Shown: positions 527-26,955 of the stretch, one piece after another
Layout: each line of letters opens with the position of its first letter
How positions within the stretch are numbered: the stretch's first letter is position 1
Assembly (NCBI GenBank): GCA_943333275.1
Contig: CALQSQ010000001.1
Location: 1 to 64,000 of the forward strand
Reading direction: 5' to 3'
From: Akkermansia muciniphila
GTDB taxonomy: Bacteria; Verrucomicrobiota; Verrucomicrobiia; Verrucomicrobiales; V1-33
DNA: 64,000 nucleotides
Program-made: the position numbers and the translations under genes
Notes under the pieces: model-generated
What the model was told of the DNA's origin: nothing
Seen by the model: only the letters and a program-made list of their open reading frames with translations
The model's database searches: none

Positions 527-546
527 TTTTGCCCATAACCCCAATC

Positions 547-2430: not shown

Positions 2431-2431
2431 C

Positions 2432-3984: not shown

Positions 3985-3998
3985 GGCCCTAGTCCAAC

Positions 3999-6900: not shown

Positions 6901-9900
6901 ATATCAAGACAGGGCAGGACCCAACTTTGCCAGAGGTTCTGGGCGGGCGTTTGGAGTTGGGCGCGACCCTCAAAGGGTTCGCCGGGGTCACCGCTCGCGG
7001 AGGCTCCCTTTCACTGCAAGCCTACATGATTCAAGTGGGCGGAAACGGTGGGTATCCTGGGGGATTGCTGCTCGAACCCGAGTTCTTCAACGAGGGTGGG
7101 TTTAGCAGTTTCACCATCAATGGCCTTGGAGCAGGAACGTCGGATCCGGAGAAATATCTGCCGGGATTGATGATTGCGTCGAATACAGTCATCGCACCGC
7201 AAGTGAAAAGTTCTTTGGCGGTTCCTTATCCGGGTGGCGACACGCTGGCTCTGGCCACGGCCCTTTATCCCCAATCGATGGTCGCCCCGGTGAGTCTGAC
7301 TTTTGGTTCCATCCAGGTGCGGGATAGCTTCGCAGGAAATGCTTTGATAGTCCGGGGCGATCTGGTGATGGGCGAGGGAGCCGTGATCCGGACCAACGCG
7401 CTTGGCAGCGTGACCCTGAAGGGGGACACGGTATCTGTTCTGGGATCCGTGATCGCTCCGGGTGGAAGAATCAATGTTACGGGTGCGAATTCCTTCCCAA
7501 GTAATCTCATCCTGACGCAGGCGCTCCCCACCGTTTACCTGGGTCCCAGGAGCCTGCTCTCCACGGCCGGGGAAGTGGTGCTGACGCCTGATGCCTTTGG
7601 TCGTCGTGTGGGCTCGGTGCTGCCTGGTGGGACCGTCAACGTGGCTGGCAACATCGTGGCCGTGGCTGGTGCGGTAATCGATGTGTCCGGAACCAGCGGC
7701 ATCCTTGATCTCCATCCAAATTACCTCGGCCTGGAAACCTCCCCGCTGGTCCTGCCATCCAGCGGTCTGACGACGCCCCGCTTCAGCCTGCTGAATGTGC
7801 CGACGCGCGTGGACAGCAATGGTGGCACCATCATCCTCAGCGGAGGTCAGGAACTGTTCATGGACGCGACGCTCAAGGGAGATGCCGGCGGACCGACCGC
7901 GACCGGGGGAACGTTGATCGTTGGATCCGGAAGCTTTTCTCCCGATGAACCGCCCACTCCGTTGACTCCAAATCTTTTCGTGACCCAGGGGGGGCGGACC
8001 ATTCCCACGGGGCAGGCGGGGATTGGGAAACCGGTGCTGGACATCCATGGCAATCCAGTGCCCGCCCTGGGGTATTTCACGGCGAACTCTTTCCTGCGTG
8101 GAGGATTTGATTCACTTATGCTGAAGGGCGTGGTGGAATTTTCCGGTCCTGTAAATATTGCCGCCCGGGGCAGTCTGATCGTTGGAACCGGAGGAGTGAT
8201 CTACGCGGACTCCGCGGTGGACCTGTCTGCTTCCTATGTGGCCCTGGGACAGGTCTTCCAAGCGCCTCAAGCCTCAGGCCAGGCGACCCCGCCCTTCCAG
8301 AATGCCGGCCAGCCGTTCTACTTTCCACCCACGTACGGACCCGGCAGCATCACGGTTCATGCGGAACACATTGATATCGGCAATCTCTCGCTGCAGGGGA
8401 TCGGCAAAGTCAATCTGATCGCCGATGGTGGGGATATCCGTGGCAATGGGACACTGGACCTGGCAGGCGATCTCTACCTCAGGGCGGCGCAGGTTTACCC
8501 TGCGGCGGCCACCACCTTTACCATGGCCGTTTACGATTACTTGAAGGACGGATTGCCACAACAGGGATCGATTACCGTGGCTGCCTCGGGGGTCCGTTCC
8601 CTGCCGCTGGAAGCGGGCGGAACGCTGCGGTTGTTTGCCTCAAGGATTGATCAGGGCGGCACACTGCGAGCGCCGCTGGGCCAGATTATCATCGGTTGGG
8701 ATGGAACCGGAACGCCTCCCGTCGATGCCATTGTCGGCCCGAACATTCTGACGAATACTAATTTCATTCCGCTGCCCACCGCCAGTCAGGTCACATTGCA
8801 GCCTGGCAGCATCACCTCTGTATCCGGGGTGGATCCCGTCACCGGACGACCGGTGCTATTCCCTTATGGCATCATGCTTAATGGGACGTCGTGGATTGAT
8901 CCTGCTGGAAACGATATCACCACGTCCGGCCCACCTGCGAAATTCATTTCCATCTCTGGCAGCAATGTGGATACGCGCGAGGGGTCGATCATTGATCTCA
9001 GCGGTGGAGGCGACCTCTACGCCTATCAATGGGTGCAGGGAACGGGCGGCTCGAAGGATATCCTGAAATCGAACACCAGTTTCGCGATTATTCCGGGGTA
9101 TCGAGGTGGGCTGGCACCTTTCGGAGCCTTCAATACCGACTCCAACATTACGAATTTCAATCAGGTCAAGACGGATGCCTCCACGCGGGATTTTGGTTAT
9201 GTAAACTCCACGCTCAATGTTGGCGACAGCATTTACCTCGACGCCAGTGCGGCTCTGCCCGCAGGCTACTACACCCTGCTGCCAGCCCGTTATGCCCTGA
9301 TGCCGGGGGCGGTGCTGGTGACTCCGCAATCCGGCATTCCTGTGGGTGATTTCCTTAAACCCGACGGCGCAAGCCTGGTAGGGGGATATCGCTACAACAA
9401 CCTTAACGGCAGCCGTGATTTGCCCGAAATTTTCTCACGCTTTGAAGTCGCGCCTTCCTCAGTGGTACGCGCCCGTGCGACCTACTTGGATTTCACGGCG
9501 AACGCCTTCTTCACAGATTATGCCAATTCGCATGAGGCAAATGTCCCCCGTCTACCGATTGATGCGGGTCAGCTGGTGCTGTCGGCCACGCTGGCGATGG
9601 CGGTCAATGGAAGTGTGATTTCCAACAAACCCATCGGGGGTCGCGGAAGCCTCATTGATATCAGTAGTCCAGTGGATATCATCATCAACGGACCGGGGGC
9701 AACTCCGGTGCCCGGCAGTCTGAATTTGGACGCAAGCAAGCTGAATGGATTCGGAGCGGACAGCCTGCTGATTGGTGGCGTGCGCACGGTGGGCCTCAAT
9801 GGCACGACCGTGAAGGTTAAGACCAACAACCTGACACTGAACAATGCCTCCGCGCCGCTCACCGGAGCCGATATCATTCTGGTTTCGAATCAAAATCTGA

Positions 9901-12900
9901 CTCTCTCACCAGGGGCGCAGATTTTATCGACCGCCGGATCCGCGGGTCAGGCCGATACCATCCTGATTGGCAATTCCACGATTCCCGGCAGTGGGGATGG
10001 ATTGCTGGTGCGGGTCAGCAGCGACCCTGCTGCGAAAGTCATCCGCAGCGGTATTAGTGCTTCCACGGTGCCCACCATGGTGGTCGGCGCAGGAAGCATT
10101 CTTTCCGGAGGAACCGTCACGCTGGACTCCACCTCCGCCACCTCCCTCGATCCTTCCGCCAGCCTGCTCGGGCAGACCATTAATTTGAACAGCGGTCAAA
10201 TCAGTCTGGCCCTGACGAACCCTGGATCGTTGCAACCGACGACCGGTCTGGTCCTTTCAGGAACGGCGCTGGCTTCGCTCCAGTCAGCCAGGGCACTTTC
10301 GCTCCTGAGCTATTCCTCGCTAGATATCTATGGCACAGGGCAGGTGGGTAGTGCCGCACTTGGGAATCTGGAATTGCATGCCGCAGAGATCCGTGGATTC
10401 AACACAGGCGGGGGAACGGTCACCTTCGCCGCGAACGATATTCTCCTGGATAACAGCTCAGGCCGGCCGGCACCGGGCATCATTGCGGCACCCACCGGCT
10501 CACTGGTGTTTAATGCCAACACGATTCGACTGGGCACCAACGGGGTGGCCATCGATCAGTATGCCGATGTGACCATGAATGCCACCGGGGGACTGCTCAT
10601 GCAGGGAACAGGCTCGACTCAGGTGGCGGGCAATCTGACCATCAGTGCTCCAATCATCACAGGGGCGGCGGGAGCGAGCCAAAACCTGACGGCGGGAGGG
10701 ACCATGAATTTGTTGAGCCCTTCCGGAAGTGGCGCGGGCACGGTGACCGGAGGCTTGGGAGCGAGTTTGAATTTCAAGGGAGCCTCGATTAATCAATCGG
10801 CAAACATTCTGCTACCATCCGGGTTGCTGACTCTGGAGAGCACCACCGGGGATCTGGTGGTGGCTGGAAAACTGAATGCGGGCGGCACCGCGCAATCGAT
10901 TCAGGATCTCGTGAAATATACCGATGGTGGTCAGGTGAAATTAATTTCAAGGCACGGCAATGTCACACTTGTGGCGGGGTCGATTGTTGATGTCGCGGCA
11001 AACGCGGGAGGAGGGAATGCCGGAACGCTTTCCATCAGCACTCCCGAGGGAGCTTTCACGCTTGATGGTACGGTTCTGGGGCAAAAGGGCGCGGGCGGCA
11101 GGGATGGATCCTTTGCGTTGGATGCCTCCACCATTCCAGGGCTGACCGCGCTGAACAGCCTGCTGAACACCACTGGCTTCACGGAGTCGCGTTCCTTCCG
11201 CGTGCGCACCGGAGACGTGCTGCTGGGAGGGACCAGTATTGCGAACCAGTTCAAGCTTTCAGCCGATGCGGGATCCATCAATGTCGTCGGCACCATCAAT
11301 GCCTCCGGCGTGAACGGGGGCACGATCAGTCTTGATGCTTCCAAGAATTTAACGCTTTCCTCGACGGCGATTCTGAATGCCTCCGGTCAGAAATTCAGCA
11401 ACGCCGGCAAGGGCGGAAGTGTCTGGCTGGGGACGCGCGGAGCTGGCGGTGGATTCATCGATCTGCAGACCGGATCGTTGATTGATCTCTCCGTGGCCAG
11501 CAACACGCCCGGAAGTGCCGCACTGGGGAATTTCACTGGCACCCTCCATCTGCGGGCACCGCAGAATGCTGCCAGCACCGACCTGGCGATCAATCCGATA
11601 AACGGCACCATTCTCAACGCGTCCAGCATCGTCGCTGAAGGATTCAAGGTGTTTGACCTCACCGGCGCGCCTGGTGCCAATGCCGTCATTACCGCTGCAA
11701 TTCAAAATAGCGTGAAGGCAAATGGCGAAGCCTTTCTGGGACTGGCGGGCACCACGACAGCCAATTACACGGCAATGCGCAATCGCCTCCTGGCCGGCAA
11801 TCCCGGATTGGATTCCGCGCTGTTCAGCATTCAGGCGGGTGCGGAAATCATCAATCGCACTGGGAATCTGACGCTGGGCACCACCGCTTCGACCTCGAGC
11901 AGTGATTGGAACCTTTCCGGCTATCGCTTCGGTCCCAACGGAGCGGCGGGCGACCTTACGCTGCGTGCGGCGGGCAACCTCACGTTCTTCAATGCTTTGA
12001 GCGACGGTTTTGCGAGCAGTGCCTACAACGCCGCCGTCATGGCCCAGAATACCGCGCTGCGCCCCAACAATCAGAGCTATTCCTACACCCTGACGTCCGG
12101 GGCGGATTTCAGTGCCGCCGATTCCCGCCAGGTCATGAGTCTCGATGCCTTGGGTAGCGGGTTGGGTTCATTGAAACTTGGGAAAAATGCCGGACTGAAC
12201 CTCGCCACTTCGCCGGGCAGCGGCGCCACGACGGCTTCCGCGGTGAATAATCGCTTCCAGGTCATCCGCACTGGCACCGGCGATATCACTATTTCCACGG
12301 GACGCGATGTGCAGTTGCTCAATCAATTTGCCACCATTTATACTGCCGGAGTAAAGGTTACGGATCCCACGCTGGGAGGAACCTTCGATACTCCCGTGAT
12401 CAATTTTTCGACAGGCGGCACGGGAACCCTGGGCTCCATTCAACAGCCCACCGCCTACCCCGCCCAATACACCTTGGGCGGTGGAAATGTGCTGATTCAA
12501 TCGCAGGGAAACCTGGAGCACCTGACGCTGGATAGCGGCGGTAATCTCGTGGCAGATTCATCCCGCGAACTGCCCAACAACTGGCTCTATCGCCGGGGAT
12601 ATGTGGACCCCCTGACCGGCAAATTCGGCAAATCTCGATTTGGCGAAGAGGCCTCGACAACGTGGTGGGTGGATTTCAGCAACTACTTTGAGGGTGTGGG
12701 GGCACTGGGTGGTGGAAATGTGACGTTGGTCGCCGGAGGCAGCATCAATAATGTCGATGCCGTGGTTCCCACCAATGCAAGAATGAGCAAGGGGATTCCC
12801 AATGCCGGCAATTTGGTTGAACTTGGCGGTGGCAACCTCACGGTCAAAGCAGGCGGCGATATCAATGGCGGGGTTTATTATGTGGAGCGTGGAAATGCTG

Positions 12901-15281
12901 CGTTGAATGCCGGGGGGAGCATCCTGACTAATGCCACGCGCACCCCATCCCGCGGCCGCATTATCAATGAGGCTCCCCTTGACCCAACCACCTGGCTGCC
13001 GACCACGCTGTTCCTCGGCAAGGGTAATCTGGATATTAAGAGCCGCGGTGATCTCACCATCGGTCCGGTGGTCAATCCGTTCCTCCTCCCCGGTGGTTAC
13101 AACAACTCCTACTGGTATAAATCGTATTTCTCAACCTACGATCCGGGTAATCAGGTCAATGTCGCGTCGTTGACTGGTGGCATTACTCTGCGGCAGGCCA
13201 CCACCCTGCCTGACAGCAGCGGTCAAACGAACATTCTGCAAGCCTGGCTGGGGAACATTGATCTATTGAGTCCCACGTCCGTCGCCTTCTACCAGCCCTG
13301 GCTGAGGCTGAATGAGACGAGCGTGGCGGTATTCACGACCGGCACCGGACTCATGCCGGCCGCCCTGCGGGCCACCGCCTTCGAAGGCGATATCAATGTG
13401 GTGGGGAATCTGACGCTTTCGCCTTCGCCCACCGGCACGCTGGACTTGCTGGCTGCGGGTGCCATCAATGGATTGCAAATCAACGGGGTCTCGAATCAAC
13501 TCGGGACTGATTCCTCGGTGCAACTGCGCGGATGGTCTGCGAGCACGATCAACGTTTCCGATGCGGATCCCTCCGCGATCTGGGGAGTGGGTTCACCCCT
13601 GGCTTACCAGACTGTGGCCGGCACCATTGCTGGCAGGGCCCAGGTCACGGGCGATCTCTTCCTCAAGCCGCTCGACGATCTGTTTGCCGAAACTGGGTCC
13701 ACCCAGGGAGTTCTCCAGACCAAGCAGGCGCTGCACGCGATTGGACTGTTGCACAAGAACGACACCATTCCGCTGCATCTCTACTCCGGCTCCGGAGACA
13801 TCTCAGGGCTGACACTCTTTTCGCCAAAGGCGGCCAGAATCACCGCCGGGCGGGATCTGACGGATATCTCGCTCTATATTCAAAATATCAGCGCCAACGA
13901 CGTGAGCCTGGTTTCCTCAGGTCGGGATATCATCGCCTACAATGCCAATGCACCCCTGCGGGTCAGCGCGCTATCAGCAGGAAATGCGCTGACTGCAGGC
14001 CAGAGTGCGCTGCCCGGAGACATTCAGATCAGCGGTCCCGGAACGCTCGAAGTTTTGGCTGGACGCAATCTGGATCTGGGCTCGGGAGATCCCAATCCGG
14101 ACGGCACCGGTGCGGGGATCACCAGCATCGGCAATGGTCGCAATCCCAGTCTGACTTTTGCTGGTGCGAATATCATTGCAGGCGCAGGACTGGGAAGTTC
14201 CCTGGGTTTGGAGAGTAACACCCTGGATTTCGATGGATTCATCGCCACCTATGTGACGCAGGATAACCTCACGAAATACCAGGCCGAATTGACGGGCAGC
14301 TTCCCGAATTTGGTGGCTGGGAATTTCACGAGCCTGCCCAAGGAGGAACAGCACCGTATTGCGCTGGAGGTCTTCTATCGTTTGCTGAGGGATGCGGGCC
14401 GGGATCATAATCTGGCCGGCAGTCCGACGTTTGGATCTTATGAGCCCGGGTTGGCCGCGATTGCTTCTCTGTTCTCGAAGGGGAATTACACGGGAGATAT
14501 TTCCACGCAGACCCGCAGCATCCGGACCGCCAGTGGCGGCTACATTTCCCTCTTCGCGCCAGGAGGAAAACTCTCCCTGGCCACCGCTCCCGTAGCCCCC
14601 GGCAGCGTGCCTCCCGGCATTGTTACAGAAGCCGGCGGTAACATTTCCATCTTTACCAATGGAGATGTGGATCTCGGCAATGCCCGGATCTTTACCCTGC
14701 GTGGTGGCAACGAAATCATTTGGTCGAGCACCGGTAATATTGCCGCTGGTTCGGCGGCGAAAACGGTCGCATCTGCGCCACCCACCCGGGTCATTATTGA
14801 TCCGCAAAGCGGAGACGTGAAGACTGACCTTGCCGGCCTCGCCACGGGTGGTGGCATCGGCGTGCTGAATACCGTGGCGGGAGTGGCGCCAGGAGACGTT
14901 GATTTGATCGCCGTCATTGGAAGCATTGATGCGGGCGACGCGGGTATTCGCTCCGCCGGGAATCTGACGCTGGCCGCCCCGGTTGTGCTCAATGCCAGTA
15001 ACATCGCCGCCACCGGAGGAACCACGGGAGCCCCCGCTGCGCCGGCCCCCACCGCTCCAAGCATCGGTTCCAGCCCCCCTCCGCCTCCACAACCCAAACA
15101 GACCACCCCCACGGATGCCAATCCCGGCACCAAACCCACCTCGGAGCAGGAACTCATGGACTCGCTGGTCACCGTGGAGGTGATTGGTTACGGCGGGGGG
15201 GGAGGGGAGGAGGACGAAGATGAGGAAGAGCGCAAAAAACGTGAACGCGAGAAACTCGAAGAACAACAGAATGCCCGGTAG
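3999..15281 (+). CDS. giant filamentous-haemagglutinin-family exoprotein (TpsA-like adhesin)
   Basis: A single uninterrupted 3760-residue frame. The N-terminus carries a signal-like hydrophobic stretch (MAGLPFVLMLSLAMQSEA); the ATG at 3999 gives a longer n-region and an in-frame ATG at 4047 is also possible. After an Ala-rich helical stretch, residues ~60-290 match the two-partner-secretion domain (INWKTFNVGLNTHLHFDQSA, then VYVINQNGIIFGGTSQVNVH around residue 214). The bulk is Gly/Ser/Thr/Asn-rich beta-helix repeats. From about residue 2640 there is a DUF3739-like region (TTWWVDFSNYFEGVGALGGG near 2886). The C-terminus is unusual: a Pro-rich linker, a glycine run, then a highly charged Glu/Asp and Lys/Arg tail. 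It closes a five-gene plus-strand run. Likely role: surface adhesion or biofilm matrix. No TpsB partner is seen in the window. Confidence 0.92.
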   Translation: MLPPAQFSVGRSHHLQMAGLPFVLMLSLAMQSEAGDILRGGAPQNSPRAPGNSAATAAASDAARANARDALSRTAKSIQAVQNLQNQARDLSRKGPNNLGADPNHPGMQLPNVPNGLGPGGLDFINATGLDPTNAVKQSLINGLTNVTVKQKDQQALINWKTFNVGLNTHLHFDQSAGGENVGQWIAFNRVTDPSGSPSQILGSITAPGQVYVINQNGIIFGGTSQVNVHTLVASSLPINENLINRGLLNNPDSQFLFSSIALPQGSKGTPAFTPPASFLPGGRVGDVTVQAGAVLASPTSAERVGGRIALLGANVTNEGTISTPDGQTILAAGLQVGFTAHDSKDPSLRGLDVYIGAVTDPGSALAPYAGTVINRGLIESPRGSITIAGKSVNQLGVLNSSTSVSLNGRIDLIASYGAQSNPAFDATDLTKGPQFLNRETGSIELGPGSVMQILPEWASVERVAGTKLPLNSQINVTGKTIHMASDSILLAPNADVTFRAGVWQPFNGLSRFTYSNGQIYLEPGALINVAGTTDALAPMSENIVKVQLRGSELADSPLQREGLLRGVDLVIDLRKTGVYNGVTWYGTPLADASGFLNLVQRTVSELTTAGGTVKLNSGNSVVVQQGAKIDVSGGWINYEGGQIQTTRVLSNGHIFDISQATPDLVYDGIYDGLFKDSHPKWGVTDTYVNPFILGAHFEPGYQFGAAGGTLGVTAPSMALDGDFFGNTINGPRQREVLAKVSELALAFTGEKNVSPYLTFSPAPPAVIFQDGSLPAAGPFTVDAGGNPAALSAARRARVLLSPELLTTRGFGSLRIDNPDGDITVPAGTELTAPAGGSITLNGANVRLQGNVTVPGGTLNLTAYNISPSVAAGLALLPDGERFKPAPNPGRGIVSVGSGVSLSTAGLVVDDRLSAPNPLGLPLLTNGGSINITAYSASLQTGSILDVSGGVAMSALGKTKYGNGGSINIKTGQDPTLPEVLGGRLELGATLKGFAGVTARGGSLSLQAYMIQVGGNGGYPGGLLLEPEFFNEGGFSSFTINGLGAGTSDPEKYLPGLMIASNTVIAPQVKSSLAVPYPGGDTLALATALYPQSMVAPVSLTFGSIQVRDSFAGNALIVRGDLVMGEGAVIRTNALGSVTLKGDTVSVLGSVIAPGGRINVTGANSFPSNLILTQALPTVYLGPRSLLSTAGEVVLTPDAFGRRVGSVLPGGTVNVAGNIVAVAGAVIDVSGTSGILDLHPNYLGLETSPLVLPSSGLTTPRFSLLNVPTRVDSNGGTIILSGGQELFMDATLKGDAGGPTATGGTLIVGSGSFSPDEPPTPLTPNLFVTQGGRTIPTGQAGIGKPVLDIHGNPVPALGYFTANSFLRGGFDSLMLKGVVEFSGPVNIAARGSLIVGTGGVIYADSAVDLSASYVALGQVFQAPQASGQATPPFQNAGQPFYFPPTYGPGSITVHAEHIDIGNLSLQGIGKVNLIADGGDIRGNGTLDLAGDLYLRAAQVYPAAATTFTMAVYDYLKDGLPQQGSITVAASGVRSLPLEAGGTLRLFASRIDQGGTLRAPLGQIIIGWDGTGTPPVDAIVGPNILTNTNFIPLPTASQVTLQPGSITSVSGVDPVTGRPVLFPYGIMLNGTSWIDPAGNDITTSGPPAKFISISGSNVDTREGSIIDLSGGGDLYAYQWVQGTGGSKDILKSNTSFAIIPGYRGGLAPFGAFNTDSNITNFNQVKTDASTRDFGYVNSTLNVGDSIYLDASAALPAGYYTLLPARYALMPGAVLVTPQSGIPVGDFLKPDGASLVGGYRYNNLNGSRDLPEIFSRFEVAPSSVVRARATYLDFTANAFFTDYANSHEANVPRLPIDAGQLVLSATLAMAVNGSVISNKPIGGRGSLIDISSPVDIIINGPGATPVPGSLNLDASKLNGFGADSLLIGGVRTVGLNGTTVKVKTNNLTLNNASAPLTGADIILVSNQNLTLSPGAQILSTAGSAGQADTILIGNSTIPGSGDGLLVRVSSDPAAKVIRSGISASTVPTMVVGAGSILSGGTVTLDSTSATSLDPSASLLGQTINLNSGQISLALTNPGSLQPTTGLVLSGTALASLQSARALSLLSYSSLDIYGTGQVGSAALGNLELHAAEIRGFNTGGGTVTFAANDILLDNSSGRPAPGIIAAPTGSLVFNANTIRLGTNGVAIDQYADVTMNATGGLLMQGTGSTQVAGNLTISAPIITGAAGASQNLTAGGTMNLLSPSGSGAGTVTGGLGASLNFKGASINQSANILLPSGLLTLESTTGDLVVAGKLNAGGTAQSIQDLVKYTDGGQVKLISRHGNVTLVAGSIVDVAANAGGGNAGTLSISTPEGAFTLDGTVLGQKGAGGRDGSFALDASTIPGLTALNSLLNTTGFTESRSFRVRTGDVLLGGTSIANQFKLSADAGSINVVGTINASGVNGGTISLDASKNLTLSSTAILNASGQKFSNAGKGGSVWLGTRGAGGGFIDLQTGSLIDLSVASNTPGSAALGNFTGTLHLRAPQNAASTDLAINPINGTILNASSIVAEGFKVFDLTGAPGANAVITAAIQNSVKANGEAFLGLAGTTTANYTAMRNRLLAGNPGLDSALFSIQAGAEIINRTGNLTLGTTASTSSSDWNLSGYRFGPNGAAGDLTLRAAGNLTFFNALSDGFASSAYNAAVMAQNTALRPNNQSYSYTLTSGADFSAADSRQVMSLDALGSGLGSLKLGKNAGLNLATSPGSGATTASAVNNRFQVIRTGTGDITISTGRDVQLLNQFATIYTAGVKVTDPTLGGTFDTPVINFSTGGTGTLGSIQQPTAYPAQYTLGGGNVLIQSQGNLEHLTLDSGGNLVADSSRELPNNWLYRRGYVDPLTGKFGKSRFGEEASTTWWVDFSNYFEGVGALGGGNVTLVAGGSINNVDAVVPTNARMSKGIPNAGNLVELGGGNLTVKAGGDINGGVYYVERGNAALNAGGSILTNATRTPSRGRIINEAPLDPTTWLPTTLFLGKGNLDIKSRGDLTIGPVVNPFLLPGGYNNSYWYKSYFSTYDPGNQVNVASLTGGITLRQATTLPDSSGQTNILQAWLGNIDLLSPTSVAFYQPWLRLNETSVAVFTTGTGLMPAALRATAFEGDINVVGNLTLSPSPTGTLDLLAAGAINGLQINGVSNQLGTDSSVQLRGWSASTINVSDADPSAIWGVGSPLAYQTVAGTIAGRAQVTGDLFLKPLDDLFAETGSTQGVLQTKQALHAIGLLHKNDTIPLHLYSGSGDISGLTLFSPKAARITAGRDLTDISLYIQNISANDVSLVSSGRDIIAYNANAPLRVSALSAGNALTAGQSALPGDIQISGPGTLEVLAGRNLDLGSGDPNPDGTGAGITSIGNGRNPSLTFAGANIIAGAGLGSSLGLESNTLDFDGFIATYVTQDNLTKYQAELTGSFPNLVAGNFTSLPKEEQHRIALEVFYRLLRDAGRDHNLAGSPTFGSYEPGLAAIASLFSKGNYTGDISTQTRSIRTASGGYISLFAPGGKLSLATAPVAPGSVPPGIVTEAGGNISIFTNGDVDLGNARIFTLRGGNEIIWSSTGNIAAGSAAKTVASAPPTRVIIDPQSGDVKTDLAGLATGGGIGVLNTVAGVAPGDVDLIAVIGSIDAGDAGIRSAGNLTLAAPVVLNASNIAATGGTTGAPAAPAPTAPSIGSSPPPPPQPKQTTPTDANPGTKPTSEQELMDSLVTVEVIGYGGGGGEEDEDEEERKKREREKLEEQQNAR

Positions 15282-15357
15282 AAGGTTTAAGCTTGTCCAA
15301 AGGCCGATTGGCACGAACTTGTCACATACTTTCACCTGCGGGCATCCGGAACCTCCT

Positions 15358-15363
15358 TACAAT
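15358..15363 (+). promoter_or_regulatory. possible -10 box of the response-regulator gene
   Basis: TACAAT, five of six matches to the consensus, ends eight bases before the ATG at 15372. No good -35 lies 16-18 bases upstream. If used, the mRNA would have a leader of only about two bases. Confidence 0.4.
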
Positions 15364-15371
15364 CAGCCTCA

Positions 15372-16052
15372 ATGCACACGGTATTAGTCGTCGAAGACGA
15401 AAAAGACATTTTGGAACTGGTAACTCTGAATTTACAGCGCCAGGGCTATAAAACCCTCACCGCGGCAAATGGAATCGAGGGGGTAGCCCAGGCCAAGGCA
15501 AGTGTGCCGGATCTGATCATCCTGGATATCATGATGCCGGGCAAGGATGGCTACGCCGTATTCAAGGATCTGAAGGAGGATGCCCGGACCAGAGGCATCC
15601 CCGTGCTGATGCTGACCGCCAAGGGGGATGTCGCCCATCGCATCGCGGGCCTTGAATTGGGGGTGGAAGATTACATGGGAAAACCTTTCAGCCCAAAGGA
15701 ACTGATGCTGCGGGTGAAGGGATTGTTGAAGCGCACGAAAAGCGTCGCCACCGATGCGAGCATTCGCGCCGGGGATTTTCTTTTGGAGCGGAATTCCCTG
15801 AAAGCCTTCGTCGCCGGTCAGCAGATTGATCTTACGGCCACGGAATTTAAACTCCTGCGGGTTCTCATCGAATCCGGCGGCACAGTGATGGAGCGCGATG
15901 CGCTGCTCAGGGAGGTGTGGGGGTTTTCTGACACCACCATGACCCGCACTCTGGATACGCATGTCAAAAGGCTTCGCGAAAAGCTCGGCAAACATGCGGT
16001 TTGTGTGCGGACGCTCCGAGGCGTCGGCTACCAGTTCAACCCGAACGTTTGA
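15372..16052 (+). CDS. response regulator, OmpR/PhoB family
   Basis: A 226-residue two-domain regulator. The receiver domain (1-~118) keeps the acidic pair E8/D9, the phospho-acceptor D52 in LIILDIMMPGKDG, T82 and K104 in GKPF. The C-terminal winged helix (~130-224) has the OmpR pattern (LTATEFKLLRVLIESGG, DTHVKRLREKLG, RTLRGVGYQF). It should be a phosphorylation-dependent DNA-binding regulator. The kinase-like gene follows after nine bases. A TACAAT box lies eight bases upstream of the ATG, without a convincing -35 element, which could mean an activated promoter. Target genes are unknown; the adjacent adhesin operon is a plausible candidate. Confidence 0.95.
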   Translation: MHTVLVVEDEKDILELVTLNLQRQGYKTLTAANGIEGVAQAKASVPDLIILDIMMPGKDGYAVFKDLKEDARTRGIPVLMLTAKGDVAHRIAGLELGVEDYMGKPFSPKELMLRVKGLLKRTKSVATDASIRAGDFLLERNSLKAFVAGQQIDLTATEFKLLRVLIESGGTVMERDALLREVWGFSDTTMTRTLDTHVKRLREKLGKHAVCVRTLRGVGYQFNPNV

Positions 16053-16061
16053 AGCGCTATC

Positions 16062-17204
16062 ATGAAGTCGCGTTTGCAGGTCAACAGTGTTCTCGTTTCC
16101 ATTTTGGATAGTCTGGGAGACGCCTGCCTGCTGTTGAACGACAAGCGTCAGATCATCCTCTACAATCAAAAGGCTCGGGAATTGTTTGCGCTGCCCGAGG
16201 GAAACAAGATTCTGGATTTAGAGGAGGTCATTAGCGAGCCAAAGTTTCTCGCTGCCTTGAAGTCGGCGCCATCCAGTTCTGATCGTTCACAACAGGAGTT
16301 CATTCTGGAGGAACCCATGGGCAGCCAGGGGGGGCGCCGGAGTCTGGCAGTCAGTGTGGGGCCGATTCACGCTACCGAGCCCGGATCGCCCTGCGTGAGA
16401 TTGCTGATTCGCGACGAAACCGACCGTCAGGTAAATGAGCAGTTGCGGAACGAGTTCGTATTCAGTGCCTCCCAGGAGCTGCGCACGCCCCTCACTATCA
16501 TCAACGGTTACCTTGAAAATCTTGTGGATGGTGTCGTCGACGAACCGTCCCAGGTTCACAAATGCCTGCTTACGATGCGCAGACATGGCGAAACCATTGC
16601 CCGCATCGTTGAGGACATGCTCACCCTTACCAAGTTCGAATCTGGACATGAGGAAACCGATCCGCGTCAGATGCGGAGGGCAAGGTTTTCCCTGGGTGAA
16701 TGCCTGAGCGATGTATTGGAACGCCTCCATCCTTCCATTGAAGCCAGCGCGGGTGCCCTGCAACTGGATATTGCAACGGATGCCGATTCCATAGCCGGAG
16801 ATCGATTCTACTGGGATCAGATATTATATAACATCCTAGAAAACGCGATCAAGCGCAATGGCCCGGGCCTCACCATCCAAGTCCGCGCCAGGCGGGAAAG
16901 TCATCAGCTGGTGCTGACCATTACCGATCATGGCAAGGTGATGCCCGCGCCGGAAGTGCCCTTTGTGCTGCATGGCCTCCATTCAGGAGACGGAATTCTG
17001 CCTCCGAACTTTGGGGGCGCGGGTCTTAGTCTTTTTGTGGCCCGCAGGGCAGTGGAGGCTCATGGTGGTAGTCTTTCGTTGGAAAGCATCCCCGGGGTGG
17101 AAACGACCTTTAAAATTGTGCTTCCGGATGTGGAGTTCGTTCCAGGCGCCGGTCATGGCAGCCATGAGGCCCCGGCCGCCAGATTGCAAACTGCCGGGCG
17201 TTAG
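16062..17204 (+). CDS. PAS-containing histidine-kinase-like protein lacking the phospho-acceptor His
   Basis: A 380-residue protein with no obvious membrane segment. An N-terminal PAS-like region (~8-120, ILDSLGDACLLLNDKRQIIL) is followed by a HisKA-type helical hairpin and a HATPase_c domain. The H-box reads SASQELRTPLTIINGY: Gln138 (codon CAG at 16473-16475) replaces the conserved His of SHELRTPL. The N-box (LYNILENAIKRNG, N261) is intact, but the G1 box is DHGKV instead of DxGxG. The G2-like GGAGLSLFV (318-325) is present. Families with these features normally autophosphorylate the H-box His; this one cannot do so at that position. It lies nine bases after a response regulator whose Asp is intact, so it may act as a phosphatase, scaffold or allosteric partner. 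The loss of His is directly seen; the functional outcome is inferred. Confidence 0.88.
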   Translation: MKSRLQVNSVLVSILDSLGDACLLLNDKRQIILYNQKARELFALPEGNKILDLEEVISEPKFLAALKSAPSSSDRSQQEFILEEPMGSQGGRRSLAVSVGPIHATEPGSPCVRLLIRDETDRQVNEQLRNEFVFSASQELRTPLTIINGYLENLVDGVVDEPSQVHKCLLTMRRHGETIARIVEDMLTLTKFESGHEETDPRQMRRARFSLGECLSDVLERLHPSIEASAGALQLDIATDADSIAGDRFYWDQILYNILENAIKRNGPGLTIQVRARRESHQLVLTITDHGKVMPAPEVPFVLHGLHSGDGILPPNFGGAGLSLFVARRAVEAHGGSLSLESIPGVETTFKIVLPDVEFVPGAGHGSHEAPAARLQTAGR

Positions 17205-17254
17205 GTTGGTCCTGAGTGGTTCGGCTGGTTGCGGGCAACGGCCAGCTTCAGAGG

Positions 17255-18175
17255 TCAGGGATGCTTGAGCAGTCCACGACTCATCATCCAATCCTCGACA
17301 CGTTTAGGCCAGGTGGTGACCGCCTCCTGGGTGGGGCGCAGTCCATACCCGTGGCCACCGGTGGGATAGATGTGGAGTTCCACCGGCACCTTGGCGTTTT
17401 TCAAAGCCAGGGTGTAAAAGAGGGCGGTTTCAACGCGAACGCCGTCATCGGCTGCCATGACGATGAAAGTCGGCGGAGTTTGCCCGCTAAGTTTTAATTC
17501 CGGAGAAATTTTATCGCCCTCCTCCTTCACGGTTAGATAAGCCGGGTAAACCAAAACGGTGAAGTCAGGGCGGCAACTTTCAGAGTCGGAATCATCAACT
17601 TTTGGATAGGTCCGTTGCTCGCAAATGACACTGGCCGCTGCGCTGAGGTGGCCGCCTGCAGAAAACCCCAAAATGCCAATGCGGGCGGGATCGATGCCAT
17701 ATTCACCCGCTCGGTGGCGGACCAGTCCCATCGCCCGCTGTGCATCCTGCAGGGCTGCGGTGTGTTTCTCCAGCCCCGCCCGACTGGGCACCCGGTATTT
17801 CAAAAGGATGCCGGTGACCCCGATCGAATTCAGCCATTCGCAAATCTCCGTTCCCTCCAAGTCCAGCGCGAGGATGGAATAACCCCCGCCCGGGCAGACC
17901 ACCACGGCCGCGCCCGTATCCTTGTCGACTGAGGGTTTGTAAATCGTCAGGGTGGGTTTGGAAACATTTGCCAGCCGGATGAGCGGTTTTCCCGCGACCA
18001 GTCCTTCGTTCGGTTTGCTCACGTCCTTCTCCTCCCCGATATCGCCTTTCTCTCCCGGAGCTCCAGCTGGCCACAGTTCAATGGGTTGGGATGGTTCTCC
18101 CGCAGGGAGTGTGACTGTGAGTTGAAAAACCAGGCCGAAACATGCGAGGGTGCGGGTAATCATGGGTGGGTTCAT
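17255..18175 (-). CDS. secreted alpha/beta-hydrolase, acetyl-esterase/lipase type
   Basis: A 306-residue protein with an N-terminal signal peptide (hydrophobic core LACFGLVFQLTVTL, then PAGEPSQP). The hydrolase core begins with VVVCPGGGYSILALDLEG (oxyanion-hole region), followed by the nucleophile elbow GILGFSAGGH, an acid residue in VMAADDGVRVE and the catalytic His in YPTGGHGYGLRP. This arrangement is typical of periplasmic BD-FAE/xylan-esterase-like enzymes of polysaccharide degraders. It is convergent with the kinase-like gene and divergent from the uronate-isomerase-like gene, suggesting a link to plant or algal polysaccharide use. The exact substrate is not deducible. Confidence 0.85.
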   Translation of the reverse strand: MNPPMITRTLACFGLVFQLTVTLPAGEPSQPIELWPAGAPGEKGDIGEEKDVSKPNEGLVAGKPLIRLANVSKPTLTIYKPSVDKDTGAAVVVCPGGGYSILALDLEGTEICEWLNSIGVTGILLKYRVPSRAGLEKHTAALQDAQRAMGLVRHRAGEYGIDPARIGILGFSAGGHLSAAASVICEQRTYPKVDDSDSESCRPDFTVLVYPAYLTVKEEGDKISPELKLSGQTPPTFIVMAADDGVRVETALFYTLALKNAKVPVELHIYPTGGHGYGLRPTQEAVTTWPKRVEDWMMSRGLLKHP

Positions 18176-18365
18176 TGGGACGATGGAGTCTGCAAATTGC
18201 TCTCACTCACAGGAACTGCAATCGCGATTCCCACAGGAGGTGTGAATTTGATGATCCGAATCAGAAAATTTTCAGCAGACAACCATGACGTTGGCGATAG
18301 GCTGTTCGGTGGATGGGGAATCCTCATCAGATTCACGAGTTAAATTTACCAACAAGCAATTTCCT

Positions 18366-19928
18366 ATGACTTGGGCGAGACCAGATACCATCCAAAGACT
18401 GTTTCAGGAGGCGTGCCGGATGCCGGTCGTGGATTCCCACACCCATGTGCAGGATGACCTCACGGGATTCGATGAGGCGCTCGCCTCACAAAATCTGGCC
18501 GGCACCCAGGCGGCGGTGAATGCCTATCCTGGTTATTTGATTCAGTCCGGGATTGCCCAGGGCAGACTGGTCCGTCGCACGATGATGGATGTGGCGCACG
18601 GATGTTTTTATTCGTGGTTCGCGGAGGTTGTGGAGGGTCGGCGCGGGAGATTGGATGGGATCACGCAGGCGGTGGGTGGAAATTCGGAAGCGGAGCGCCG
18701 GAAGGTGGGTGGGCTGCTGCTGCATGAATTGCAGGACGCGCGTTTCAGTGAATACGCCGAGTGGCTGCGTTTCATGTTTCGCCTCTATCCCGGGTTGGAG
18801 GCGCTTGATCCGTTGGATCCAGTGAACTTTGATACGGTGTATGAAGCCGTGAAAAAGCACCGCAGCGATCCTGCGTTCGCTGAACGCGTTCTGCGCGAGA
18901 ATCATATCCTTGGTTACGTGACGAGTATTGAGAACCGCGATCGCATTCCGCTGGATGCCCGCGAGGCACGCGTCGGTCAGGTGGACCTCGCCTACGCCAC
19001 GCATCCCGAGGCCTATCACATGTTCGATGCGAACTATCTGGTCTGGCCGCAGGGGGCGACGGATTTCGGACTGTTCACGGGCGGGTACAAATACGAAGCG
19101 GAGAGCTACCTGCTCAATCTGGAAATAATGACAGGCTGCATGTTTCACAGGGCGGGCGATCTCAGGGATGGAGTGAAGGCATTTTTCCTGCGCATCCTTT
19201 ACAGCCCCTCCCACAACCCCACGAGCCGCATCCGCTATACTGACCTTTTCCATCCGATCGACTACCGGTTTGGCTGCGCTTACGACCCGTCCGCCATCAA
19301 TACAATCCTGCGCTTCCGCAAAGCCAATGTCCGCGCGGAGGACCTGCCGCAGTTGATCGCGGTGGTGACGGAAGGGATGCTGGAGGCGCTGGAGGAAATC
19401 GGCAGGGACCTTCGCAATCATGGCGAGGAGTATGGTTCCTGTTTGCAGATTGCCATTGGGGTGACGTATTTCATGGATCAATCCCGCGAGATTCAAAGCT
19501 TTCCCATCTATGCCCCGGGCCTGCCGCAGGATGAATATCCGGTGTGGAGCAATTATCCCAACGTGCATTTCGAGTACATTGTCGCCCACCAGCAACTCTA
19601 TGAGGACCTGGCCAATGCAGCCAAACAGGTGGGCAATGTGGCGGTGGGGCCCTGGTGGCATTTTTTCCGCAAACACAAGATTGCCTCCATGATGTCGGAT
19701 CAATTGAGCATGGGGCCTGTGAGCGCCATCGCCAGCGGATTTACCGATGCCCGATTTGTAGAAATGCTGGCGGCCAAATATCAATCCGTCCGCTGGGCGG
19801 TGGCGGCGGCGCTGGCCAATCTGGTGGATGACCCCGCCTCAAGCCTCCGCGAGGATGCGGCCATGGGAGTGATGCGGGAAATCCTGCTGGTGAACCCCTG
19901 CAAGGTTCACCATTTGCCATTTGCCTGA
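18366..19928 (+). CDS. uronate-isomerase-like / amidohydrolase-superfamily protein
   Basis: A 520-residue protein from the ATG at 18366; an in-frame ATG at 18285 would add 27 residues without a signal peptide or recognised motif. The metal-binding start VVDSHTHVQDD (H25 and H27) is typical of amidohydrolases. The overall length and the C-terminal part (VGPWWHFFRKHKIASMMSDQ, then GFTDARFVEMLAAKYQSVRW) resemble the UxaC glucuronate-isomerase family. That family interconverts D-glucuronate and D-fructuronate. Similarity looks distant, so the true reaction may differ. No other uronate pathway genes are seen nearby; the divergent secreted esterase is the only carbohydrate-related neighbour. No Shine-Dalgarno sequence supports the chosen start. 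Confidence 0.6.
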   Translation: MTWARPDTIQRLFQEACRMPVVDSHTHVQDDLTGFDEALASQNLAGTQAAVNAYPGYLIQSGIAQGRLVRRTMMDVAHGCFYSWFAEVVEGRRGRLDGITQAVGGNSEAERRKVGGLLLHELQDARFSEYAEWLRFMFRLYPGLEALDPLDPVNFDTVYEAVKKHRSDPAFAERVLRENHILGYVTSIENRDRIPLDAREARVGQVDLAYATHPEAYHMFDANYLVWPQGATDFGLFTGGYKYEAESYLLNLEIMTGCMFHRAGDLRDGVKAFFLRILYSPSHNPTSRIRYTDLFHPIDYRFGCAYDPSAINTILRFRKANVRAEDLPQLIAVVTEGMLEALEEIGRDLRNHGEEYGSCLQIAIGVTYFMDQSREIQSFPIYAPGLPQDEYPVWSNYPNVHFEYIVAHQQLYEDLANAAKQVGNVAVGPWWHFFRKHKIASMMSDQLSMGPVSAIASGFTDARFVEMLAAKYQSVRWAVAAALANLVDDPASSLREDAAMGVMREILLVNPCKVHHLPFA

Positions 19929-23286: not shown

Positions 23287-23769
23287 TTATTCGGTTACGC
23301 CATTAAGGGGGGGCTCAGCTGGGAGGCGAAGGCGCGCCAGACGCTGGCGGATACGTCGGGCCATCTGCGGATTATTTTCCAGTTCCTCAGTCAACATCTC
23401 AAGGGCGCGCTGGGTTGACTGGCTGATGTGGTGCTCCATGCCCTCCACATCAGCATAAATCGTGGCTTCATCCAATCCAAAATTCTGCAACAACTTTGTC
23501 AGCATGTCGTGCCGCTTGCGGATGTCCCGGCCTATCTTTTCTCCGGCGGGGGTGAGCACGGTGCCGCGGTATTTCTCGTAAATTACCAGGCCATTGGTAT
23601 CCAGCTTCTGGATCATGTTGGTCACGCTGGCCTGGGAAATGCCAAGGTTGGCCGCGATGTCCACCACCCGGGCGTAGCCTTTGGATTCGATCAGGGCATG
23701 GATTTGCTCCAGATAATCCTCCATGGCGGCGGATTCGAGTGAACGGGAGGATTCGGAACGAACGGGCAT
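23287..23769 (-). CDS. mntR: DtxR/MntR-family metal-dependent transcriptional regulator
   Basis: A 160-residue protein from the ATG at 23769; a longer in-frame start at 23811 would place the -35/-10 pair inside the gene. The winged helix is at ~15-75 (YLEQIHALIESKGYARVVDI, ISQASVTNMIQKLDTNGLV). The dimerisation and metal-binding part (~75-140) has the MntR-like residues RHDMLTKLL and DVEGMEHHIS. There is no SH3-like C-terminal domain, as in MntR rather than DtxR. It is divergent from the metal ABC transporter, which it most likely represses when Mn(II) is abundant. Four genes of unclear metal relevance follow on its own strand. Confidence 0.88.
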   Translation of the reverse strand: MPVRSESSRSLESAAMEDYLEQIHALIESKGYARVVDIAANLGISQASVTNMIQKLDTNGLVIYEKYRGTVLTPAGEKIGRDIRKRHDMLTKLLQNFGLDEATIYADVEGMEHHISQSTQRALEMLTEELENNPQMARRIRQRLARLRLPAEPPLNGVTE

Positions 23770-23776
23770 TGCCCCA

Positions 23777-23805
23777 ATGCTAGGAGGGATTGGCGCTGTT
23801 GGCAA
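23777..23805 (-). promoter_or_regulatory. putative mntR promoter (leaderless geometry)
   Basis: On the minus strand TTGCCA (23805-23800), a 17-base spacer and TAGCAT (23782-23777) lie with seven bases before the ATG at 23769. The predicted transcription start falls at or one base before the start codon. Confidence 0.55.
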
Positions 23806-23844
23806 CGGCAAATTCGCAACGACTATTAATATTTGTTATCTAAA

Positions 23845-23867
23845 TGAAAACTAGCGCTTGAAAACTA
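23845..23867. promoter_or_regulatory. direct repeats TGAAAACTA in the mntR/metal-transporter intergenic region
   Basis: TGAAAACTA occurs at 23845-23853 and again at 23859-23867, a period of 14 bases, between the divergent regulator and transporter genes. The second copy runs into the 9-base palindrome CTAAATTAG (23865-23873). This is the best candidate for a metal-regulator operator; it does not match the textbook MntR box closely. Confidence 0.45.
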
Positions 23868-23886
23868 AATTAGACGCGACTAACTC
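23858..23886 (+). promoter_or_regulatory. possible promoter of the metal ABC transporter operon
   Basis: TTGAAA (23858-23863), 17-base spacer, TAACTC (23881-23886), six bases before the ATG at 23893. The -10 is a poor match. An alternative -10 is TAAATT at 23866-23871. Either way the promoter overlaps the TGAAAACTA repeats. Confidence 0.35.
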
Positions 23887-23892
23887 TCGGGC

Positions 23893-24861
23893 ATGATCAC
23901 GTTTTTTGCTTCGCATTGCTCCCCCTTTCGCCAACTCCTTCCGTTTTTGGGTGTCCTGATGCTGGCCGGTTGCGGAAAGGCGCCGGTGGTCAATTCCGGT
24001 GCGGACGACAAGCCCCCCGTTATCGTGACCACCACAACGATGATCACGGATTTGGTAAAACAGGTAGGTGGCGATCTCTTCGAAATCAAGCCCCTCATGT
24101 CAGCCGGAGTGGACCCGCACCTGTACAAGCCGACCGCCGAGGACGTGAATAAGATCACGAAGGCCAAGGTAGTTATCTATGGAGGCCTGCACCTTGAAGG
24201 TCGGATGGTGGAAATTTTTGAGCGGTTAAATCCAGCCGAAAAGATCACGCTATCATTAGGCGATTCCCTGCCAGTGGATGTGAGGATACCCATTGCTGGC
24301 CTGCTCTATGATCCGCACATCTGGGGTGATGCCAAACTCTGGGCCCAGACGGTTCCGGCGCTGGTCGCGACGCTGGTTAAAGCCTCGCCCACACATAAGG
24401 AGGAAATTGAACTCCGTGGAAGGGAAGCGCAAAAAAGTCTGATGGGACTTCACAGTTGGTTGAAAATGAGGAGCGATCTTCTCGCCCCGGAGCAACGGGT
24501 TCTGGTTACGAGTCATGATGCGTTTCAATATTTCGGGCGCGCCTATGGATTTGAGGTTGTTGGCGTGCAGGGGATTTCGACGGACAGTGAGGCCGGATTG
24601 AAGGACATCGCCAGGGTGATTGATCTGGTGCGGGGGCGCAAAGTGAAGGCGATCTTTATCGAGAGCAGCGTCTCCCCAGCCGTCATTCAACGCATTGCCA
24701 AGGATTCCGGAGTGGCCATCGGAGGGGAGTTGTTCAGCGATGCCCTCGGGATTCCGGGTGCGATGGTGGATGTGGGGGATGAAGGGAAGGTGGACCAGGG
24801 AACGCTGGAGGGGATGCTCAAATCCAACATGACGACCATCATCAATGCCCTGAAGCCATGA
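23893..24861 (+). CDS. Mn/Zn ABC transporter substrate-binding lipoprotein
   Basis: A 322-residue lipoprotein precursor with lipobox LAGC (Cys27). It belongs to the cluster A-I metal-binding proteins (TroA/MntA/ZnuA): GVDPHLYKPTAEDVNKI carries the first metal His, DPHIWGD the second, and VTSHDAFQYFGRAYG, IFIESSVSP and ELFSDALG complete the typical site regions. It lacks the His-rich loop of classic ZnuA, and with the adjacent MntR-type regulator Mn(II) is the favoured substrate; Zn cannot be excluded. It is the first of four genes, and its stop overlaps the ATPase start (ATGA). Confidence 0.92.
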   Translation: MITFFASHCSPFRQLLPFLGVLMLAGCGKAPVVNSGADDKPPVIVTTTTMITDLVKQVGGDLFEIKPLMSAGVDPHLYKPTAEDVNKITKAKVVIYGGLHLEGRMVEIFERLNPAEKITLSLGDSLPVDVRIPIAGLLYDPHIWGDAKLWAQTVPALVATLVKASPTHKEEIELRGREAQKSLMGLHSWLKMRSDLLAPEQRVLVTSHDAFQYFGRAYGFEVVGVQGISTDSEAGLKDIARVIDLVRGRKVKAIFIESSVSPAVIQRIAKDSGVAIGGELFSDALGIPGAMVDVGDEGKVDQGTLEGMLKSNMTTIINALKP

Positions 24862-25640
24862 GCGCATCGCCGCCATCACCGTCGCCCTGGGCCATGGAAT
24901 GCCACGACCTTACGGTGACATATGACCGCAAGCCCGTGCTTTATGGCATCGATTGCTGCATTCCGGCGGGTTCCCTGGTTGGTGTGCTGGGTCCCAACGG
25001 AGCAGGTAAATCAACCCTGCTGAAGGCGGCGCTGGGACTGATTCCGGTGTCAGGGGGTTATGTGGAAATGTTTGGTCAGCCTCAGGGCAAGGTTTCCCGT
25101 CGGGTCGGTTATGTGCCGCAGCGTGAATCTGTGGATTGGGATTTTCCGGTCACGGTCATGGATGTCGTGCTGATGGGCCGCTATGGGCGACTGGGTTTGT
25201 TCCGGCGTCCCCGCAAGGCTGACCGGGAGATTGCCGAGCGGTCCCTGGAAAAAGTGCAGATGCTGGGATACGCCGACCGGCAGATTGGCCAGTTGAGTGG
25301 CGGCCAGCAACAGCGCGTATTCCTGGCCCGGGCGCTTGCGCAGGAATGCGATCTATACCTGATGGATGAACCCTTCGCGGCTGTCGATGCAGCGACGGAG
25401 CGCGCGGTCATCGGGCTGCTCCGGGAAATGCGGGAGAGCGGGAAAACCGTGCTGGTCGTCCATCACGATCTGATCACTGCTCCCACTTATTTCGACCGGT
25501 TGCTCCTGCTCAACCTGCGCTGCGTGGCCTATGGCCTGACATCGGAAGTGTGGACTCCTGAAAATTTACACCAAACCTACGGAGGCCAGATGACCGTCCT
25601 CAGTGAACTGGCGCTGCAATCCGTGGCCAAGGTCCATTAG
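24858..25640 (+). CDS. Mn/Zn ABC transporter ATP-binding protein
   Basis: A 260-residue ABC ATPase: Walker A GPNGAGKST near residue 45, Q-loop region YVPQRESVDWDFPVTV, signature LSGGQQQR near 146, Walker B LYLMDEPFAAVD near 169 and H-loop VVHHD. The sequence around the Q-loop is typical of metal-type transporters (MntB/ZnuC/TroB). It powers import through the two downstream permeases. It overlaps the binding-protein gene by four bases, and the first permease starts 13 bases after its stop. Confidence 0.95.
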   Translation: MSASPPSPSPWAMECHDLTVTYDRKPVLYGIDCCIPAGSLVGVLGPNGAGKSTLLKAALGLIPVSGGYVEMFGQPQGKVSRRVGYVPQRESVDWDFPVTVMDVVLMGRYGRLGLFRRPRKADREIAERSLEKVQMLGYADRQIGQLSGGQQQRVFLARALAQECDLYLMDEPFAAVDAATERAVIGLLREMRESGKTVLVVHHDLITAPTYFDRLLLLNLRCVAYGLTSEVWTPENLHQTYGGQMTVLSELALQSVAKVH

Positions 25641-25653
25641 CCAAAGCTGCGAT

Positions 25654-26955
25654 ATGGAATTCCTCCTGATTTGCGCCACCTGGATCGAAAATGCCGGAAG
25701 GTTTCTCACCTTGGAGGACGAGTTTGTGCGGGCCTCCGTGCTTGGTGCCGTTTTGCTGGGGCTGAACTGTGGTGCGTTAGGATCGTTTCTGGTGGTGCGC
25801 AGGATGTCACTGGTTGGGGATACCCTTTCCCATGCCGTGCTGCCGGGAATCGTGGGTGGCTATCTGTGGAATCAAACAAAAGATCCGGTGGCGATGCTCA
25901 TCGGGGCAATCATTGCCGGCGTGATCGGAACGATGCTGATGAATGCCATCACCTCCACGACGAAAATCAAGAGTGATGCGGCCCAGGGGATTATTCTTAC
26001 AGTCTTTTTTGCGATTGGGGTATGCCTCATCAGTCTGCTGCCACCTGGAAACAAGGGCGGCGTGGACCGCTTTTTGTTTGGTCAGCTGGCGGCGGTCAGC
26101 GCGCAGGACATTTCCTGGTTGAGCAAAGCCACGGCCATCACGGGGCTGAGTTGCCTGCTGGGATACCGTGGGCTGTTGGTGCTGAGTTTCGATCCTGTCT
26201 TTGGCCGGCTTTGCGGCCTGCCCATGCGTTTTCTCCACTATGGGCTCATGCTGCTGACCACGCTGGCCATCGTCGTGGCCATGGAATCGGTGGGAGTGGT
26301 GCTGGTGTCGGCAATGCTGGTGATCCCCGCATCGGCGGCCTCACTGCTCACGCAGCGCCTGCATTGGCTGATTCTGATGGCGGGGGCCTTTGGGGTGACG
26401 GCTGGATTGCTGGGGACATTTTTATCATTTGTTGGCGACCAGCCCACGGGGCCGATGGTGGTGATTGCAGCTTCGGGAATATTTGCCCTGGCCTTCGGTT
26501 TTAGTCCGCGCACGGGACTGGTCACCGGCTGGTGGTCGGCCTATAAATGGAACCGCCAGGTGGAGATGGAGAACGATCTGAAGTCCATTTACCGGCATTG
26601 GGAGGACCAGCATGGGGAAGAAAGCTCCGATGCCCAAGCCCATGCTTTTTCACCCAACGAATTTGTCCCTCTGAAAAAACTTCGCAGTCTTCAAAGCCAG
26701 GGGCTGGTGGAGGTGTCCGAACTCGGCGGCGACCGGTGGAAATTTACCACCAGGGGACTTGCCGCCGCACAGCGGGTCGTGCGGCATCACCGACTCTGGG
26801 AATTGTATTTATCCCGCCGCGCCAGCTATCCAGCGGATCACGTTCATGATGACGCGGAAAAGATCGAGCACCTGATGGACGATGATCAGGCTCGGCGACT
26901 CGCCGAGCAACTGGGCAATCCCACCTGCGATCCCCACGGTCGGCCCATCCCATGA
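25654..26955 (+). CDS. metal ABC transporter permease fused to a DtxR-like domain
   Basis: A 433-residue protein from the ATG at 25654; upstream codons in the frame overlap the ATPase gene. Residues ~20-290 are an ABC-3 family permease with about eight hydrophobic segments (GSFLVVRRMSLVGDTLSHAV, VLVSAMLVIPASAASLLTQR). Residues ~300-433 are cytosolic and resemble the second half of a DtxR/MntR protein: a partial winged helix (LKKLRSLQSQGLVEVSELGG) and a dimerisation/metal-binding segment (HHRLWELYL, then DHVHDDAEKIEHLMDDD). It is not a sequencing fusion with the separate mntR-like gene, which is intact and divergent. The domain may sense cytosolic metal and gate transport (inference). Its stop overlaps the second permease by four bases. 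Confidence 0.9.
   Translation: MEFLLICATWIENAGRFLTLEDEFVRASVLGAVLLGLNCGALGSFLVVRRMSLVGDTLSHAVLPGIVGGYLWNQTKDPVAMLIGAIIAGVIGTMLMNAITSTTKIKSDAAQGIILTVFFAIGVCLISLLPPGNKGGVDRFLFGQLAAVSAQDISWLSKATAITGLSCLLGYRGLLVLSFDPVFGRLCGLPMRFLHYGLMLLTTLAIVVAMESVGVVLVSAMLVIPASAASLLTQRLHWLILMAGAFGVTAGLLGTFLSFVGDQPTGPMVVIAASGIFALAFGFSPRTGLVTGWWSAYKWNRQVEMENDLKSIYRHWEDQHGEESSDAQAHAFSPNEFVPLKKLRSLQSQGLVEVSELGGDRWKFTTRGLAAAQRVVRHHRLWELYLSRRASYPADHVHDDAEKIEHLMDDDQARRLAEQLGNPTCDPHGRPIP

Follow-up and report, generated by a model that had tools for sequence, protein, structure and literature searches.

The 64,000-nucleotide stretch of Akkermansia muciniphila DNA examined here (the window; contig CALQSQ010000001.1 of assembly GCA_943333275.1) encodes a PhoR-type histidine kinase homologue that is well supported, by the state of its motifs, as a predicted pseudokinase: glutamine stands in place of the phospho-accepting histidine, and the motifs of the ATP pocket are altered as well. 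Few histidine pseudokinases have been studied, and this locus brings together a PhoR-type pseudokinase beside an intact PhoB, a likely working kinase elsewhere in the genome, and conserved stubs of the same protein type in sister genera.

The window protein is a genuine histidine kinase homologue, because HisKA (50.5 bits, E 2e-13, cut-off 26.9), HATPase_c (63.7 bits, E 3e-17, cut-off 26.4) and PAS all match it in Pfam. Its gene follows that of the regulator after a gap of 9 bases, and a filamentous-haemagglutinin-type gene ends 90 bases upstream of the regulator (Table 1). A promoter/terminator scan of positions 15100-17350 found no terminator-like site, and its 2 promoter-like matches, against 0.9 expected, are uninformative. 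Read by eye, several relatives carry an N-terminal membrane segment and the window kinase has none; this is not diagnostic, because the relatives in G004, G006 and G029 are also without one.

Table 1. Features of the pseudokinase locus and of the secretion locus upstream of it (window positions).
Feature	Position	Strand	Remarks
TonB-like gene, secretion locus	86-526	+	
Porin_5 gene, secretion locus	529-2430	+	
Coiled-coil gene, secretion locus	2423-3106	+	
PPIC-type PPIase gene, secretion locus	3103-3984	+	
Filamentous-haemagglutinin-type protein with DUF3739, 3760 aa	3999..15281	+	
PhoB-type response regulator, 226 aa, receiver and OmpR/PhoB winged helix	15372..16052	+	Active site intact
PhoR-type histidine pseudokinase (predicted), 380 aa, PAS, DHp and degenerate CA	16062..17204	+	
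PAS domain, residues 12-103	16095..16370	+	Pfam, E 1e-4
DHp/HisKA domain, residues 129-195	16446..16646	+	On average 66% identical to intact relatives in the family
Codon 138, CAG, Gln replacing phospho-accepting His	16473..16475	+	Sequence context FVFSASQELRTPLTIINGYLEN
ELRT, residues 139-142, phosphatase motif E..T kept	16476..16487	+	Motif role from the accessible part of PMC5727384
CA/HATPase_c domain, residues 252-356	16815..17129	+	Family match retained (Pfam)
G1 box, DHGKVMP	16926..16946	+	Versus DNGxGIP
F-box region, FVLHGLHSG	16962..16988	+	Versus F[IV]FKRF[YF]R[VG]
G2 box, GGAGLSLFVA	17013..17042	+	Versus KGTGLGLSIV

An earlier note, made from the letters alone, had reported Gln at the phospho-acceptor site and an altered G1 box, and both observations hold: Gln138 lies within SASQELRTPL, and the G1 box departs from the consensus as tabulated. 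A kinase search of 57 genomes (the own genome and 56 others) gave matches in every one, and in an alignment of the best match per genome from 29 of them (L002-L030, 34-45% identical, with stops in matches shown as X) the column of Gln138 is His in 29 of 29 relatives. The earlier note had held that homologues with His would speak against its reading; His is what the homologues carry, and this does not refute the pseudokinase reading, given that catalytic motifs beyond the H-box have gone as well. The full F-box string reads PFVLHGLHSG, as compared with PFIFKRFYRV in the family, and the N of the NAIK motif is kept. The protein thus has no H-box His and altered G1, F and G2 boxes, and lacks what marks an active HisKA kinase.

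The pseudokinase call of the earlier note is borne out by the distribution of these changes. Among 58 columns invariant in 27 intact kinases the window protein alters 17, whereas the same test applied to those kinases one by one gives just 0-3. The altered columns are concentrated in the H138, G1-F and G2 regions (13 of 20 columns there, 4 of 38 in the rest of the protein; Fisher p 3e-5, with region borders set by the analyst and alignment columns that are not independent). When its identity is averaged over nine intact relatives, the window protein reaches only 24% in G1-F and 37% in G2, where the intact kinases of its own genus reach 79-82% and 74-81%; in DHp helix 2 it reaches 67% (own-genus intact kinases 59-66%) and in the CA tail 56% (51-64%). 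In helix 1 the part after the lost His (residues 139-157) agrees with the family consensus at 16 of 19 positions, and by sequence the DHp surface is retained; the half preceding the His is altered, with 7 of 12 consensus residues kept, which speaks against full retention. The AlphaFold model of the window protein (mean pLDDT 53.6) is too poor to show retained folding.

A box without His is rare in the material that we searched. Within the own genome, 17 of the 19 HisKA matches carry His, the exceptions being the window protein and a locus on another contig (L051, G000:C160). The latter has Ile at the position, and its HisKA match is under the family cut-off. When 384 genomes of the class were scanned with a DNA pattern of the box with Gln, which would miss other degenerate boxes, 14 of them gave 18 sites in all, and after translation the window's site alone falls within a histidine kinase. 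Gln138 is known from one sequence, and no second genome carries the window kinase gene; a scan of genome contigs gave three relatives, the best of them 37% identical and from a Prosthecobacter MAG.

The regulator, as the earlier note had stated, lies nine bases upstream and keeps the phosphorylatable D52 together with E8/D9, T82 and K104. It is 64-70% identical to its family orthologues and present in 11 of the 12 other family genomes, the orthologue being missing from G012, a 68% complete genome. The second-best regulator in the own genome is 39% identical, and the window regulator is thus its sole close PhoB-type one. It alters 11 of 106 otherwise invariant columns, including T103G and V102M near the active site, as compared with 9 of 115 for the orthologue in G001 (this alignment and its counts lack the regulators of G006 and G044 as well as the second regulator of G029).

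In all ten of these genomes that lie outside the window's genus (G002-G011) the regulator is paired with a His-bearing kinase. G001, the only further genome from the genus, has the regulator alone, with an intact kinase on a different contig. The intact kinase is likewise apart from the regulator in the own genome, where an intact PhoR-like kinase, unlinked to the window regulator, lies on contig C45; it is 65% identical to the G001 kinase and about 50-53% identical to the paired kinases in other family genera. No regulator was seen beside it on that contig, which starts about 1.4 kb upstream of the kinase. Because the window regulator is the sole close one and an intact unlinked kinase is present in the same genome, we infer that the window PhoB is served by the C45 kinase. 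The suggestion of the earlier note that another kinase feeds the regulator has thereby gained a candidate, by sequence only, together with a parallel in G001.

PhoR and PhoB are the best NCBIfam matches of the pair, at scores that fall short of equivalog status. Against TIGR02966 (PhoR) the window kinase scores 154.8 bits and the C45 kinase 231.8, both below the equivalog cut-off of 334.2; against TIGR02154 (PhoB) the window regulator scores 219.3 and the G001 orthologue 225.5, both below 296.2; the intact relatives tested were also sub-equivalog. Contig C34 of the own genome carries the pst operon, with no such kinase or regulator adjoining. Pho boxes numbered 3, versus 4.5 expected from shuffles, for an E. 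coli-type consensus that may not be that of this phylum.

In a kinase tree the window protein falls inside a clade of the family plus G044 (support 99/97), on the longest branch of the tree (2.54, versus 0.45 for the intact pair from its genus). A single clade of the window, C45 and C82 kinases, as a within-genus duplication would give, was not rejected (AU test p 0.299). This tree does not include the G009 kinase, which is partial, and X characters were stripped from the outgroup rows, among which one listed match, L013, holds one stop.

Related to the window protein are short PhoR derivatives of about 200-220 aa, which comprise PAS and DHp and stop where the CA domain should start. They occur in 8 of the 13 family genomes, in genera g2 and g3, with two loci in G003. 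The box is without His in 9 of the 9 loci read (IQLRGPL, IQLKNPL and similar), and the E..T phosphatase motif is also changed. The loci are L131-L138 and L149 (G003:C48), an example being L143:6042-6665(-). A search across 112 genomes of the order, of which 99 do not belong to the family, showed no more of them; two other matches with ORFs shorter than 300 aa (G425, G443) are weak and partial. The short derivatives are under purifying selection in g2 and g3, with dN/dS values of 0.04-0.15 (seven pairs among eight loci, several with saturated dS) and of 0.17 in a full-length comparison of one of the seven pairs. A free tree, built without out_L021, out_L025 and the G003:C48 stub, separates the window protein from the short derivatives. 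It suggests an independent origin, which we do not claim, as one clade for both is unrejected (p-AU 0.195).

Several of these derivatives lie at haemagglutinin secretion loci, as the window protein does. The window contig begins inside such a locus, with its visible part at 86-15281, so that genes for TpsB and ExbB are not seen there. In G002, G011 and G012 a short derivative heads a TpsB-ExbB-TonB-porin run, which continues with coil and PPIase genes in G002 and G012 and then with a DUF3739 haemagglutinin in G012; from TonB onward, the stub-headed run shares its gene order with the genes that come before the window pair (L170, L145, L143). As for the remaining loci, the short derivative at G003:C51 has a haemagglutinin gene at a distance of about 4.4 kb, those at G003:C48 and in G008 are divergent from pstS, those in G005 and G007 have neither neighbour in the flanking DNA examined, and that of G009 is followed almost at once by the end of its contig. 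In Pseudomonas aeruginosa, where pdtA, pdtB, exbB2, exbD2, tonB4 and a putative porin form a comparable set, pdtA expression needs PhoB, according to the accessible part of the report (PMC7035377). The Pdt/VreI locus joins a TPS exoprotein to exbB-exbD-tonB and a putative porin and resembles the secretion locus of the window; it differs in involving the sigma factor VreI, and no pseudo-PhoR is described in that part of the source (PMC7035377). A PhoB-dependent Pdt set gives the association of pseudo-PhoR with secretion loci biological sense, as a resemblance and not as a test. It is a tentative and somewhat improbable extension that the haemagglutinin secretion loci of the family acquired their own non-catalytic PhoR-derived partners, as a full-length pseudokinase or as PAS-DHp stubs, which would serve each locus as a decoy or brake tuning the PhoB phosphate signal; the window protein could then be a full-length intermediate of the stub lineage. 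Any control of the secretion locus by the window protein is likewise putative.

Our preferred reading, on whose correctness we are evenly divided, is that the window protein is a PhoR-type pseudokinase which binds PhoB and/or PhoR and tunes the PhoB circuit. Having no acceptor His and a disrupted ATP pocket, it is predicted from its sequence to be unable to autophosphorylate, while it would retain the PAS domain and the surface of the DHp four-helix bundle. The adjoining PhoB would most likely be phosphorylated by the intact, unlinked C45 kinase, and the window protein would dock PhoB and/or form mixed dimers with PhoR, setting the available PhoB~P. Binding to PhoB and/or the C45 kinase is what we consider most likely; the direction of the effect we infer. 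The earlier note had named phosphatase activity, scaffolding and nucleotide sensing as possible roles. The last is disfavoured by the loss of G1 together with the F-box and G2. Either of the first two may apply, since E139/T142 and the docking half of helix 1 are kept.

A retained non-catalytic role is favoured because the changes concentrate in the catalytic motifs. The most serious competitor, though an unlikely one in our judgement, is that the protein is a slowly decaying, functionless remnant, the in-place copy having become redundant once C45 had gained a second, intact PhoR. Such an intact copy does exist, the G001 regulator has no adjoining kinase, and the very long branch of the window protein is what relaxed constraint would also give. 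Decay would, however, be expected to spread its changes instead of clustering them in catalytic motifs, and it fits poorly with a DHp helix 2 as well conserved as that of the genus's intact kinases and with a codon-position G+C of 63/42/62%, which is still gene-like. The open frame alone is indecisive, because its weight depends on how many changes followed the loss: in a neutral simulation the probability of no stop was 0.55, 0.29, 0.10 and 0.01 after 17, 30, 60 and 100 amino-acid changes, so that an intact ORF is unsurprising after only 17-30 neutral changes, but one of 380 codons is improbable after 60-100. A sequencing or assembly artefact is very improbable indeed. The genome is a 215-contig draft and CAG is one base off CAC, but a single-base error is rejected as insufficient because the F-box and G2 are broken along with G1; all three carry many substitutions in a frame that stays open, and G+C is even, at 56-60%, across window positions 1-30000.

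The protein might instead be a phosphatase-only PhoR that removes PhoB~P by means of E139/T142 and so opposes the C45 kinase, which the retention of both residues would allow but which we think doubtful. The nucleotide pocket, often a cofactor site, is broken in the window protein, and the short derivatives of sister genera have changed the phosphatase motif too. For EnvZ, the accessible part of one report describes H243A as abolishing kinase activity and T247A as abolishing phosphatase activity, but also implicates the conserved His in dephosphorylation (PMC5727384). In the comparable case of DivL, phosphatase activity was absent in the part of the source available (PMC4211667).

The window pair resembles PhoR/PhoB in its best NCBIfam matches, in its PAS-DHp-CA architecture and in the pairing of close relatives of the kinase with the regulator; it differs by the lost His and ATP pocket, and has no pst genes adjoining. 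DivL of Caulobacter has Tyr, not Gln, at the site, possesses several PAS domains and belongs to a different pathway, and its regulator is not known to be encoded beside it. The likeness lies in the non-His residue at the phospho-acceptor site and the retained regulator-docking surface, and DivL is described, in the accessible part of the paper, as still docking its regulator although it acts neither as kinase nor as phosphatase (PMC4211667). The RocA protein of group A Streptococcus, from what is available of the report, is likewise kinase-like with a degenerate CA domain and acts on another kinase, modulating its circuit (PMC7028121); RocA, however, keeps a dispensable His and is proposed there to act via a membrane-spanning region, which the window protein is without. 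In Corynebacterium glutamicum, as far as the accessible text goes, an inactive ChrS leaves its regulator to a paralogous kinase; the pseudokinase is proposed to boost phosphotransfer from that paralogue, and the native proteins form heterodimers (PMC9491836). That ChrS variant differs in having arisen by frameshift in laboratory evolution, with its His kept. Searches of the open-licence literature at listing level found no degenerate or pseudo histidine kinase of the window type and no truncated DHp-only PhoR; nothing on point appeared for the phylum with haemagglutinin and Pho, and for PhoR/PhoB/histidine kinase pseudokinases reviews alone surfaced.

Intact kinase, full-length pseudokinase and DHp-only stub form a natural series within one bacterial family, which lets one test how a kinase becomes a modulator.

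Elsewhere in the window, positions 23287-26955 hold genes named by eye as a DtxR/MntR-like regulator, a metal-binding ABC lipoprotein, an ATPase and a permease ORF, the C-terminal part of the last resembling, by eye, a DtxR-type domain. A 547-aa ORF at 18285-19928 has a DSHTH motif and looks amidohydrolase-like by eye, with no Pfam family above cut-off.
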